NCBI GenBank assembly: GCA_026932235.1
Contig: JAIXKR010000086.1
Location: forward strand, 40,599-104,598
Length of the DNA: 64,000 nt
Reading direction: 5' to 3'
Source: Burkholderiales bacterium
GTDB taxonomy: Bacteria > Pseudomonadota > Gammaproteobacteria > Burkholderiales > Burkholderiaceae_C
In this document: piece by piece, positions 10,439-58,221 of the stretch
Numbering within the stretch: the first letter of the stretch is position 1
Layout of the letters: each line of letters begins with the position of its first letter
Program-made: the position numbers and the translations under genes
The notes under the pieces: generated by a model
What the model was told of the DNA's origin: nothing
Database searches by the model: none
What the model saw: only the letters and a program-made list of their open reading frames with translations

Positions 10439-11241
10439 GACAGCCACCGCTTGCGGCGTTTGTAGCTCTTCACGTCGCGGAAGCTCTTGCGGTCGGCGCC
10501 GCCGATGCCGAGGTAGAACTCCTTCACGTCCTCGTTCTCGCGCAGGTCGGCGGCCTTGCCGTCCATGACGATGCGGCCGTTCTCGAGGATGTAGCCCTCG
10601 TCGGCGTACTTGAGCGCGATGTTGGTGTTCTGCTCGGCGAGCAGGAAGGTCACGCGCTCCTTGGCATTGAGGTCCTTGACGATCTCGAACACCTCCTCGA
10701 CGATCTGCGGCGCAAGGCCCATGCTCGGCTCGTCGAGCAGCACCATCTTCGGGTTGGCCATCAGCGCGCGGCCGATCGCGCACATCTGCTGCTCGCCGCC
10801 CGAGGTGTAGGCGGCCTGGCTGCCGCGGCGGGTCTTCAGGCGCGGGAAGTAGGTGTAGACCTTCTCCAGCGTCTGCGCCACCGCCGCCTTGCCGTCGCGG
10901 CGCGTGTAGGCGCCGGTGAGCAGGTTCTCCTCGATCGTGAGGTGCGCGAAGCAGTGCCGCCCCTCCATCACCTGGATGACGCCGCGCTCGACCATCTGTG
11001 CCGGACTGAGCTTCTCGATGCGCTCGCCGCGCAGCTCGATGCTGCCCTTGGTGACCTCGCCGCGCTCGCCCGCCAGCAGGTTGCTGACGGCGCGCAGCGT
11101 CGTCGTCTTGCCCGCGCCGTTGCCGCCCAGCAGGGCGACGATGCCGCCCTCGGGCACCTGCAGGCTCACGCCCTTGAGCACCAGGATGACGTGGTTGTAG
11201 ATGACCTCGATGCCGTTGACATCGAGCAGCAGGCTGCTCAT
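10435..11241 (-). CDS. livF: branched-chain amino acid-type ABC transporter ATP-binding protein LivF
   Basis: This 268-residue ATPase has Walker A GGNGAGKTTTLR (about residue 40), an ABC signature TSGGEQQMCAIGRALM, and Walker B MVLLDEPSMGLAP. The pattern VMEGRHCFAHLTIEENL is LivF-like. TSGGE instead of LSGGE is a mild deviation. It is longer than E. coli LivF (237) through a lysine/arginine-rich C-terminal tail. It forms the ATPase pair with LivG and energises the LivHM channel. It follows the binding-protein gene and overlaps the downstream 98-aa gene. Confidence 0.92.
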   Translation of the reverse strand: MSSLLLDVNGIEVIYNHVILVLKGVSLQVPEGGIVALLGGNGAGKTTTLRAVSNLLAGERGEVTKGSIELRGERIEKLSPAQMVERGVIQVMEGRHCFAHLTIEENLLTGAYTRRDGKAAVAQTLEKVYTYFPRLKTRRGSQAAYTSGGEQQMCAIGRALMANPKMVLLDEPSMGLAPQIVEEVFEIVKDLNAKERVTFLLAEQNTNIALKYADEGYILENGRIVMDGKAADLRENEDVKEFYLGIGGADRKSFRDVKSYKRRKRWLS

Positions 11242-52522: not shown

Positions 52523-53452
52523 TCAGGCCGCAACCGCCTCCAGCGCCTTGCGCATCTTCTTCATCGCCGCGACCTCGATCTGGCGGATGCGCTCGGCCGA
52601 GACGCCGTATTCGGCGGCCAGCTCGTGCAGCGTCATGCCGCCGCTGCCGTCGTCGTTGACGGCCAGCCAGCGCTGCTCGACGATGCGCCGGCTGCGCGCA
52701 TCCAGCGCCTGCAGCGCCTGCACGATGCCGTCGCTGGCCAGCCAGTCGCGCTGCCGTGCTTCGAGCGCCCGCGTCGGCTCGTGCGTCTCGTCGGCAAGGT
52801 AGGCGATGGGGGCGAAGCTCTCCTCGCCGTCGTCGCCGGTCTGCGGTTCGAGCGCGACGTCGCCGCCGGCCAGCCGCGTCTCCATCTCGACGACCTCGGC
52901 GGGCTTCACCGCCAGCTCGGCGGCCACGGCCTCGATCTCGGCTGCGGTGAGCGTGCTGCGGTGCGTTTGCCCGTCGGCGCCCTCGCCCTTGAAGCCCTGC
53001 TTCATCGAGCGCAGGTTGAAGAAGAGCTTGCGCTGCGCCTTGGTCGTGGCGACCTTGACCATGCGCCAGTTCTTCAGGATGTACTCGTGGATCTCGGCCT
53101 TGATCCAGTGCAGCGCGTAGCTCACCAGGCGCACGCCCTGGTCGGGATCGAAGCGCTTCACCGCCTTCATGAGGCCGACGTTGCCTTCCTGGATCAGATC
53201 CCCCTGCGGCAGACCGTAGCCCAGGTACTGGCGCGAGATCGACACCACGAGGCGCAGGTGCGAGAGCACCAGCCGCCCCGCAGCCTCGATGTCGCCGTGC
53301 TGCTGCAGCCGGCGGCCCAGATCGGCTTCCTCGCCCGCGCTGAGCATCGGCAGGCGGTTGACGGCCGAGATGTAGGCGTCCAGATTGCCGAGTGATGGCA
53401 CCAGCGCCCAGGGGTCGCGCAGCGTCAGAGCAGTCGATGAGGTGTGGTTCAT
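52523..53452 (-). CDS. rpoH: RNA polymerase sigma-32 (heat-shock) factor
   Basis: The 309-residue sigma factor has region 2 (HLRLVVSISRQYLGYGLPQG, QEGNVGLMKAVKRFDPDQGV, LVSYALHWIKAEIHEYILKN), the RpoH box QRKLFFNLRSMKQGF that marks sigma-32, and region 4 with the helix-turn-helix TLHELAAEYGVSAERIRQIE. It directs transcription of chaperone and protease genes. ATG at 53452 gives the family N-terminus; an upstream in-frame TTG at 53467 is the alternative. A perfect CIRCE operator lies in the leader, 40 bases upstream of the ATG, so transcription is probably also controlled by the HrcA repressor. Confidence 0.97.
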   Translation of the reverse strand: MNHTSSTALTLRDPWALVPSLGNLDAYISAVNRLPMLSAGEEADLGRRLQQHGDIEAAGRLVLSHLRLVVSISRQYLGYGLPQGDLIQEGNVGLMKAVKRFDPDQGVRLVSYALHWIKAEIHEYILKNWRMVKVATTKAQRKLFFNLRSMKQGFKGEGADGQTHRSTLTAAEIEAVAAELAVKPAEVVEMETRLAGGDVALEPQTGDDGEESFAPIAYLADETHEPTRALEARQRDWLASDGIVQALQALDARSRRIVEQRWLAVNDDGSGGMTLHELAAEYGVSAERIRQIEVAAMKKMRKALEAVAA

Positions 53453-53492
53453 GTCCCTTGGGATCAAGAGGCAGCCTTGAAGTTCCGGAATG

Positions 53493-53519
53493 TTAGCACT
53501 CTCGGTCTTCGAGTGCTAA
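53493..53519. promoter_or_regulatory. CIRCE element (HrcA operator) in the rpoH leader
   Basis: TTAGCACTC (53493-53501), a 9-base spacer, and GAGTGCTAA (53511-53519) match the CIRCE consensus with no mismatch in either half-site. It lies 40 bases before the rpoH ATG and just downstream of the predicted rpoH promoter, the usual position for HrcA repression. Confidence 0.92.
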
Positions 53520-53546
53520 GAATCTCGGTCGATGCGCTCCATACCT

Positions 53547-53576
53547 CTTGTACGTGCGCGCTTACATCTGATGCAA
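53547..53576 (-). promoter_or_regulatory. predicted promoter of rpoH
   Basis: Reading on the minus strand, TTGCAT (53576-53571) and TACAAG (53552-53547) are separated by 18 bases, a fair sigma-70-like promoter. The start point would be near 53540, so CIRCE would occupy roughly +20 to +47. Confidence 0.5.
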
Positions 53577-53579
53577 GGC

Positions 53580-54656
53580 TCAGTCAGCAGCTTCGACATG
53601 CCGCGCCAGCGCCTGGCCCAGGGTGGTGGTGTCGGCGTCGCCGCCCAGGTCCGGCGTGCGCGGCCCGTCGCGCAGGACGATCTCGATCGCGCGCAGAATG
53701 GCGTCGTGGGCCTCGCGGTGGCCCAGGAAGTCCAGCATCATCGCCGCGCTCCAGACCATGGCCACGGGGTTGGCGATGTTGCGGCCGTAGATGTCAGGGG
53801 CCGAGCCGTGCACCGGCTCGAACAGGCTCGGGAAGCGGCGCTCGGGGTTGAGGTTGGCGCTGGGCGCGATGCCGATGGTGCCGGTGCAGGCCGGTCCCAG
53901 GTCGGAGAGGATGTCGCCGAAGAGGTTGGTCGCCGCGACGACGTCGAAGCGCTGCGGCTGCAGCACGAAGCGCGCGGCGAGGATGTCGATGTGCTGCTTG
54001 TCCCAGCCCACGTCCGGGTGGCGTGCCGCGGCCTCGGCGGTGCGTTCGTCCCACCAGGGCATGCTGATCGCGATGCCGTTGCTCTTCGTCGCCACGGTCA
54101 CGTGCCGGCGCGCGCGCTTGCGCGCAAGCTCGAACGCGAAGTTCAGCAGTCGCTCGCTTCCCGTGCGAGTGAACACGGACTCCTGCAGGACGAATTCGCG
54201 CTCGGTGCCGGCGAACATCACGCCGCCCACCGTGCTGTATTCGCCTTCGGTGTTTTCGCGCACGATCAGCATGTCGATGTCGCCGGCGCGGCGCCCCGCC
54301 AGCGGACACGGCACACCGTCGAAGAGCCTTGCCGGGCGCAGGTTGACGTACTGGTCGAATTCGCGCCGGAACTTCAGCAGGCTGCCCCAGAGCGAGACGT
54401 GGTCGGGCACCGTCGCCGGCCAGCCCACGGCCCCGAAGAGCAGGGCGTCCATGCCCTGCAGTTGCGCTTTCCAGTCGTCGGGCATCATCTGCCCCGTCCG
54501 TGCGTACCAGTCGCAACTCGCCCAGGCGATCGGCGTCACCTCGAGCGCGATGCCGAAGCGCCGCGCCGCCACGTCGAGCACGCGCAAGCCCTCGGGCATG
54601 ACCTCCTTGCCGATGCCGTCGCCGGGGATGACGGCGATGCGGTGGGGTCTGTTCAT
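53580..54656 (-). CDS. tartrate / D-malate dehydrogenase (decarboxylating) family protein
   Basis: This 358-residue enzyme belongs to the isocitrate/isopropylmalate dehydrogenase family: IAVIPGDGIGKEVMPEGLRV, LLIVRENTEGEYSTVGGVMF, and the metal aspartates in LFGDILSDLGPACTGTIGIA, followed by FEPVHGSAPDIYGRNIANPV. The pattern SVFTRTGSERLLNFAFELAR and the 355-residue size fit tartrate/D-malate dehydrogenases (TtuC/DmlA) better than LeuB, and no leu genes are near. It would oxidise D-malate, tartrate or a similar hydroxy acid with NAD+. It lies 13 bases downstream of ychF on the same strand. Confidence 0.88.
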   Translation of the reverse strand: MNRPHRIAVIPGDGIGKEVMPEGLRVLDVAARRFGIALEVTPIAWASCDWYARTGQMMPDDWKAQLQGMDALLFGAVGWPATVPDHVSLWGSLLKFRREFDQYVNLRPARLFDGVPCPLAGRRAGDIDMLIVRENTEGEYSTVGGVMFAGTEREFVLQESVFTRTGSERLLNFAFELARKRARRHVTVATKSNGIAISMPWWDERTAEAAARHPDVGWDKQHIDILAARFVLQPQRFDVVAATNLFGDILSDLGPACTGTIGIAPSANLNPERRFPSLFEPVHGSAPDIYGRNIANPVAMVWSAAMMLDFLGHREAHDAILRAIEIVLRDGPRTPDLGGDADTTTLGQALARHVEAAD

Positions 54657-57330: not shown

Positions 57331-58155
57331 TCAGGCGCGGCGGCGCGCAGCCGAACCGGCGGCCAGCAGCGCCGTGACCACGAGGGCCAGCGACACCGGT
57401 TCCGGAACCTGCGTCGGCGGCTCAACGGTGCCGTTGCGAACGTTGAAAATGTAGCGGCCGGCGACGTTGCTGTTCAGCGAACCGCTGATCAGCGCGTTCG
57501 GACCGCCGTCCAGGAAGGCCCCGTTGATGGCGGAACCGGCCAGTTCGAACGTGGCCGCGCCCCCGTTGGACCAGCCCACGCGCGCCGAGCTGCCGCCCAG
57601 ACCGTTGGCGTTGCCGCCGCTGGCCGTACCGGCCTCCCACTGGATCTGGTCGTAGTTGAACTCGAAGTCGAAGTCGCCGGCCGCGATGTCCGAGCGGTCG
57701 GTGATGATCAGCTGGAAGCTGTTCAGATTCCCGTAGTACTGGCTGTAGTAGCCGACATCGATCCAGTTGACGCCGAAGACGCTCCGGCCGCCGATCGTGG
57801 CCTGACCGAAGCGGACCACGTCGCTGCCCGAGCCGCGGGTATCGACGTCGGCGAAGAACGGCGCCAGGATCTCGCGGCTCGTCGTCGACAGGCTGAACGG
57901 AGTGTAGGTCGACAGCGGTGCGTCGAAGGTGACATTGCCATTGTTGTTGACGAACAGTTGGCTGAAGCTCTGCCCGAAGAAGTTGATCGTGAAGCCCAAG
58001 CCCTGTGCGGCGGTCGAACCGTCGTCGTTTGCGGCCAGCACGTTGGTGAACAGTGCCGCATCGCGGATGGCCGCCGCCTGCACGTCGCCCGCCGGCGTCG
58101 CCAGCACCAGCGCCAGCGCGGCGGCGGACACCGAACCCATCAGCGCCTTCGTCAT
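57331..58155 (-). CDS. NIDO-domain PEP-CTERM exported protein
   Basis: The 274-residue product has an N-terminal signal peptide (ALMGSVSAAALALVLATPAG), a NIDO-like extracellular domain (FFGQSFSQLFVNNNGNVTFD, then SREILAPFFADVDTRGSGSD and VRFGQATIGGRSVFGVNWID) and a C-terminal PEP-CTERM sorting signal: VPEPVSLALVVTALLAAGSA followed by ARRRA. Exosortase is expected to cleave at the PEP motif and place the protein at the cell surface or in exopolysaccharide. ATG at 58155 has GGAG 9 bases upstream; ATG 58170 is the alternative. It stands alone, with a sigma-54-type promoter and its own terminator. No exosortase gene lies in the window. Confidence 0.9.
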   Translation of the reverse strand: MTKALMGSVSAAALALVLATPAGDVQAAAIRDAALFTNVLAANDDGSTAAQGLGFTINFFGQSFSQLFVNNNGNVTFDAPLSTYTPFSLSTTSREILAPFFADVDTRGSGSDVVRFGQATIGGRSVFGVNWIDVGYYSQYYGNLNSFQLIITDRSDIAAGDFDFEFNYDQIQWEAGTASGGNANGLGGSSARVGWSNGGAATFELAGSAINGAFLDGGPNALISGSLNSNVAGRYIFNVRNGTVEPPTQVPEPVSLALVVTALLAAGSAARRRA

Positions 58156-58221
58156 TTCTTCAATCTCCATTTCATGTTGCCGCTGCGTGCAACACCGCGT
58201 CGCACACTGCCAAAATGACAG

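Follow-up and report, generated by a model that had tools for sequence, protein, structure and literature searches.

The CIRCE operator is bound by the repressor HrcA, and its usual targets are groESL and hrcA-grpE-dnaK-dnaJ. Textbook accounts of heat-shock control describe E. coli, where HrcA is absent, and Bacillus, in which HrcA acts on chaperone operons. In E. coli, a sigma-E-dependent promoter is found among the promoters of rpoH, the sigma-32 gene; the consensus of sigma-E promoters is GGAACTT followed, after 16–17 nt, by TCnnA. For Geobacter sulfurreducens, a perfect CIRCE located at −51 relative to the start of rpoH was predicted in 2004 (PMC545781, Table 8), and this was the only CIRCE at rpoH found in the portions of the open-licence literature that were searched. 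The same publication refers to a survey from 2003 that covered beta, gamma, and epsilon proteobacteria. Permina and Gelfand (2003), who treated the regulons of these three groups, may already list some of the sites described here. In Agrobacterium, HrcA and RpoH are both present and both act on groE according to the available part of PMC11764788, in which a cited title describes their roles as differential and independent.

Operator, rpoH, and hrcA in the analyzed genome

The window, namely the whole 64-kb stretch of Burkholderiales DNA that was analyzed, contains a CIRCE at positions 53493–53519 (no strand assigned), which consists of the half-sites TTAGCACTC and GAGTGCTAA separated by the 9-nt spacer TCGGTCTTC. 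We predicted this to be an HrcA site from the sequence match and from its conservation in relatives. The site shows 0/18 mismatches to the consensus and is located 40 nt ahead of the rpoH ATG, confirming what an earlier note on this DNA had reported. It was the sole CIRCE at ≤3 mismatches within the window, and none of 100 dinucleotide shuffles contained such a match. The rpoH gene is on the minus strand and runs from the ATG at 53452 to 52523, thereby encoding the sigma-32 heat-shock sigma factor of 309 aa counted from this ATG; its product scored 390 bits against TIGR02392, for which the cut-off is 323.1. A Shine-Dalgarno-like AAGGGA was observed at 53454–53459 on the same strand, and an alternative in-frame TTG start is located at 53467, 15 nt upstream of the ATG. 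The upstream neighbour, a tartrate dehydrogenase-like gene at 53580–54656, is also on the minus strand and has its 3′ end at 53580, indicating that rpoH is the only plausible target of the CIRCE.

The assembly of the window is a draft MAG of 169 contigs, with 80.9% completeness and 5.8% contamination. The earlier note had proposed a search of this genome for hrcA and for other CIRCE sites, and both were found. One hrcA was detected (PF01628, E 2.6e-66; TIGR00331, 312 bits with the cut-off at 197.2), and CIRCE at ≤3 mismatches occurred twice, namely at rpoH and, with 1 mismatch, ahead of the Cpn10 (groES) gene. Because the assembly is 80.9% complete, further CIRCE sites may be absent from it. 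One RpoE scored above the model cut-off. The neighbours of hrcA were an NAD kinase gene, a RecF/RecN/SMC-like gene, and a PEP-CTERM protein gene; no CIRCE at ≤3 mismatches was located near hrcA, and autoregulation of hrcA by CIRCE was thus rejected for this genome. The ORFs at 57331–58170 of the window and at 11026–11982 of L280 share an ending composed of VPEP, hydrophobic residues, and arginines; Pfam assigned PEP-CTERM to the hrcA-adjacent ORF and a Nidogen-like domain to the window ORF.

Conservation of the rpoH site and its association with hrcA

At least 585 RpoH relatives were confirmed, and the best 80 of these were used, whose titles named Burkholderiales genera or, for some MAGs, broader groups only. 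CIRCE was present within 300 nt from the match start in all of these best 80 of at least 585 relatives, with no mismatch in 63, one in 15, and two in 2; conservation of the site ahead of rpoH in related Burkholderiales, which had been named as a check, was thus borne out. Farther upstream in the same best 80 of at least 585 loci, of which 78 had a testable stretch, the best CIRCE match carried 6–8 mismatches. Furthermore, 73 different spacers were observed across these 80 sites, which argues that selection, beyond mere recent shared ancestry, has kept the arms.

The presence of the site was compared with that of hrcA in 200 genomes of the order, including the window's own, from 50 families. 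CIRCE at ≤2 mismatches was observed in 176 of the 200 genomes, with exactly two in 150 as counted from the listing; the reversed CIRCE pattern, used as a chance control, matched in 11 genomes of this 200-genome listing. The hrcA gene was found in 178 genomes; 20 of the 22 hrcA-minus genomes were listed as such, and the other two were assigned by elimination. Excluding the window's own genome, rpoH leaders were readable in 195 of 199 genomes, leaving out G029, G044, and G121, which had no RpoH match at E 1e-60, and G129, whose gene was truncated at the contig end; two RpoH loci were read in G046, and the better one was counted. Among leaders from hrcA-containing genomes, 172/174 had CIRCE at ≤4 mismatches (164 at ≤2 mismatches), compared with 0/21 of those from hrcA-minus genomes, where the best match carried 5–9 mismatches (Fisher p 3e-26, kinship ignored). 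One of the two exceptions, G083, had no site and a weak hrcA match (E 1.5e-10). In the other, G169 (L183), both arms were intact before rpoH with a spacer of 10 nt, a possible case of shifted HrcA geometry. Five families (f4, f24, f31, f34, and f50) each mixed hrcA-containing genomes that had the site with hrcA-minus genomes that did not, which suggests several joint losses of hrcA and the rpoH site. This joint absence, repeated several times inside one family, links the site with HrcA.

A similar association was observed in the class. An RpoH match at E 1e-70 was obtained in 179 of 187 genomes, three of which belonged to the window's family, its own genome included. From the remaining 176, we read 70 leaders outside the order, a non-random set of the 30 best-scoring ones and 40 picked down the listing; hrcA-minus status beyond 20 listed genomes was assigned by elimination. 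CIRCE at ≤3 mismatches was present in 53/56 leaders with hrcA and in 2/14 without it (Fisher p 4e-9, kinship ignored). The two hrcA-minus genomes keeping the site were G271 (1 mismatch) and G361 (3 mismatches). The three leaders with hrcA but without the standard site were those of G285, where one arm had 3 mismatches and the spacer was 8 nt, G337, and G225, where one of the two RpoH copies was read. Thus, in both samples the site occurred with hrcA and was absent without it, apart from the seven exceptions named here. Two or three RpoH matches per genome were observed in G225, G341, and G270; in family f76, the copy read in G341 had a 3-mismatch site, and the copy read in G225 had none. The idea that a half-site, namely the left arm with the promoter bases, is kept after hrcA loss found no support; GCACTC and GAGTGC were each found in 1/33 hrcA-minus leaders within the last 280 nt.

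In the phylum sample, CIRCE at ≤1 mismatch was detected in 134/299 genomes. We fetched 30 loci, all labelled as outside the class, and assigned their genes by tblastn with proteins of the window's genome; 29/30 were located before groES and 1/30 before rpoH. Therefore, in the loci read, the rpoH site is mainly, though not exclusively, a trait of this class. The one outside-class locus with CIRCE ahead of an rpoH-like gene, L316 (G498), is possibly an independent gain. An inner base of the operator was changed in L285 (G344), L311–L314, L316, and L339, giving TTAGCAGTC and/or GACTGCTAA; both arms were changed together in L285, for which an HrcA with altered specificity may be considered.

Promoter-like bases at the operator

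We aligned 308 rpoH sites, comprising the 80 named ones (the best 80 of at least 585 relatives), the window, 172 from the order, and 55 from the class, among which species may recur across sets. For comparison, 60 order genomes were searched for groES leaders, and 30 were obtained. An operator was present in 28 of these; the two leaders without it (G018 and G033) were both from hrcA-minus genomes. Read in the rpoH sense, the right arm ends in TAA and is followed by nAT, so that the hexamer TAnnAT was formed in 259/308 sites, including all 80 named loci (best 80 of at least 585), and its final T was present in 299/308. By contrast, TAnnAT was found at only 1/28 groES operators, whose flank was mostly CA. 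The arms of the rpoH sites were also unequal, such that position 3 of the left arm was G in 89/308 while its mirror base, T25, was unchanged in 308/308; at groES, positions 3 and 25 were equally variable (2/28 and 2/28). Furthermore, TTGAAA occurred within 36 nt before the operator in 19/28 groES leaders compared to 6/308 rpoH leaders, indicating that the operator follows the promoter at groES.

These patterns fit a −10 box built from the right arm together with the three bases after it, combined with a −35 element made of the left arm as TTAGCA or TTGGCA, which would be a tolerated or improved −35, at a distance of 18 bp. The promoter-like bases are locked to the rpoH operator, and this TAnnAT arrangement appears to be new here. 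In the window, the proposed −35 hexamer is TTAGCA at 53514–53519 (minus strand; 4/6 against TTGACA), and the proposed −10 hexamer is TAACAT at 53490–53495 (minus strand; 4/6 against TATAAT). The pair matched 8/12 consensus bases, and a plain sigma-70 scan of 53400–53700 at a threshold of 9/12 found no promoter; the proposed sigma-70 promoter is put forward on the conservation of these bases and not on the consensus score. The earlier note had placed the CIRCE just after a plausible promoter. A position on the promoter describes it better.

A second promoter-like pattern was observed around the operator. GGAAC was present in the 40 nt ahead of the operator in 158/308 rpoH leaders, compared to 0/28 groES leaders, and we take its spacing to TCnnA at the rpoH leaders to be that of a sigma-E promoter. 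A strict sigma-E-like pattern occurred in 149/308 leaders (shuffles: mean 1.1, maximum 8), and a relaxed one, GAAC-N18/19-TCnnA, overlapped or adjoined the operator in 204/308 (shuffles: mean 4.0, maximum 11). In a recount of the relaxed pattern, which gave 205, the TC came from the operator arm only in 125 and from elsewhere in 72, and in 8 the pattern itself occurred downstream only. When sorted by the phase of GGAAC to CIRCE, TCnnA was found at +23/+24 in 10/11 (phase −31), 21/25 (−17), 60/62 (−16), 9/12 (−14), and 30/30 (−12). Because the operator arm itself supplies the TC at −16 and −17, only the three remaining phases are independent tests. In the 38 leaders without a standard site, the strict and relaxed patterns were found in 4 and 10 whole leaders, respectively, with shuffle means of 0.5 and 2.1 and maxima of 2 and 7. 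In many related leaders, the putative sigma-E-like promoter overlaps the operator, so that HrcA would gate envelope-stress input as well.

The window itself matches the sigma-E-type sequence pattern downstream of the operator, at 53486–53459 on the minus strand. The −35-like box GGAACTT is located at 53480–53486, and the inferred −10-like box TCCCA at 53459–53463 follows after 16 nt and is located 6 nt upstream of the ATG. Such a downstream pattern was shared by the window, L004, L005, L006, L008, and L010 and was absent from L007 and L009, and its −10 ends 5–7 nt before the rpoH ATG. A start at this sigma-E-like promoter would presumably give an almost leaderless rpoH message beyond the reach of HrcA.

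Alternative readings and the proposed control of rpoH

From these data, we consider it very likely that the repeat is a working HrcA operator placed on the rpoH promoter and that HrcA would repress rpoH by covering it. The same inverted repeat could instead form a hairpin in the rpoH mRNA leader that acts in stability or as a thermosensor and binds no protein. Its symmetry indeed permits a perfect 9-bp stem, and the CIRCE in the groE leader RNA of Bacillus reportedly affects mRNA stability. However, the site was missing in 33/35 hrcA-minus leaders, the arms were lopsided at positions 3 and 25, and the bases past the right arm were conserved as a −10 box, which implies that the transcript of that promoter would start downstream of the repeat. 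Moreover, an Rfam search of 53300–53700 returned only one miRNA model with E 0.48, far below its cut-off. Given the joint absence with hrcA, the asymmetry of the arms, and the −10-like bases, an RNA element was judged highly improbable. It is also unlikely, though less so, that TAnnAT is an extended HrcA recognition sequence peculiar to rpoH sites and not a −10 box. These bases lie immediately next to the operator, their conservation is strong, and the hexamer of the window is a poor −10 match; nevertheless, groES operators of the same order are flanked differently, and the mirror flank of the rpoH sites was AT in only 10/308.

Somewhat more room must be given to the doubtful but possible case that HrcA binds with minor effect, such that sigma-E-like or other promoters, or post-transcriptional steps, govern rpoH and CIRCE only fine-tunes it. 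The sigma-E-like pattern at 204/308 sites, its position outside the operator in the window and five relatives, the rpoH of Xylella that does not track hrcA in the available data of PMC3224663, and rhizobia in which CIRCE was no guarantee of HrcA control in the available part of PMC3989490 are all in its favour. Against it, the operator was kept in nearly all of the hrcA-containing leaders that we read from the order and the class, which argues for a strong selected effect, and it covers the sigma-E-like −10 at many sites. The operator-promoter reading itself is weakened by the seven hrcA/site exceptions and by the weak −35/−10 pair of the window (8/12).

Under HrcA repression of rpoH, the HrcA system would probably govern the sigma-32 system, so that one form of heat-shock control is set over the other. 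Control of the sigma-32 gene by HrcA, as the earlier note had put forward, gained support from the presence of hrcA, the conserved site, and the joint absence of both. In unstressed cells, GroE would keep HrcA active, and active HrcA would cover rpoH from the −35 (left arm) to the −10 (right arm plus three bases), block the polymerase, and thereby hold rpoH low; at groES, it would sit past the promoter instead. When misfolded protein occupies GroE, HrcA would release DNA and free groESL and rpoH together, after which sigma-32 would switch on the other heat-shock genes. The downstream sigma-E-like promoter of the window and five close relatives could bypass the operator. We infer this two-tier circuit through chaperonin load from published GroE-HrcA work in other bacteria (PMC8533110); the part available describes an increase in HrcA binding caused by GroE in Campylobacter and cites the titration model of Bacillus.

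Published expression data point in both directions. In a Variovorax transcriptome from a consortium, rpoH, hrcA, groES, groEL, dnaK, and dnaJ were up and grpE was down (available part of PMC5911999), a pattern consistent with HrcA control of rpoH but no test of it. Under nitrogen starvation in Xylella, hrcA was four-fold up at 2 h with chaperone genes down, yet rpoH showed a two-fold increase at 8 and 12 h (available part of PMC3224663). These data count against HrcA repression of rpoH, and they bear on it only if the Xylella rpoH has the site. The rhizobial data also count against it, since there a CIRCE consensus was no guarantee of heat induction and one CIRCE-bearing groESL operon was unresponsive to hrcA knockout (available part of PMC3989490).

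If the proposed control is true, many beta- and gammaproteobacteria would stack both systems, with HrcA sensing chaperonin load and setting the sigma-32 level. Deletion of hrcA would then raise the whole sigma-32 regulon, the increase of rpoH mRNA would precede that of sigma-32 targets, and envelope and cytoplasmic folding stress could converge on one 27-bp operator.

Compared with HrcA/CIRCE control at groESL, the operator sequence and the repressor family are the same, and groES of the window's genome carries such an operator. However, the target here is rpoH, and the rpoH operator contains −10-like bases, whereas groES operators follow the promoter. The control of hrcA-grpE-dnaK-dnaJ differs in that no CIRCE is located near hrcA in the window's genome. 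A predicted CIRCE before rpoH was already known; the −10-like bases in the operator and the sigma-E-like overlap are new here, and neither these nor joint absence with hrcA was found in the portions of the open-licence literature searched. In G. sulfurreducens, a deltaproteobacterium, a perfect CIRCE before rpoH was likewise a prediction (available part of PMC545781); here, the site extends over many of the sampled families of a different class and shows both joint absence with hrcA and overlap with promoter-like bases. Agrobacterium similarly has both regulators, but their roles there are independent according to the title cited in PMC11764788. The rpoH of E. coli shares a sigma-E-type promoter, which is a sequence pattern in the case of the window; on the other hand, E. 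coli, included in the control set of the profile search, had no HrcA match, whereas the window's genome has hrcA. We see about an even chance that HrcA control of rpoH was ancestral in Gammaproteobacteria sensu GTDB (betas included), with the operator as the core promoter that also gated the sigma-E promoter. Control without HrcA, as in E. coli, would then be derived after repeated hrcA loss, and the sigma-E-like promoter below the operator in the clade of the window would provide an almost leaderless, HrcA-independent transcript.
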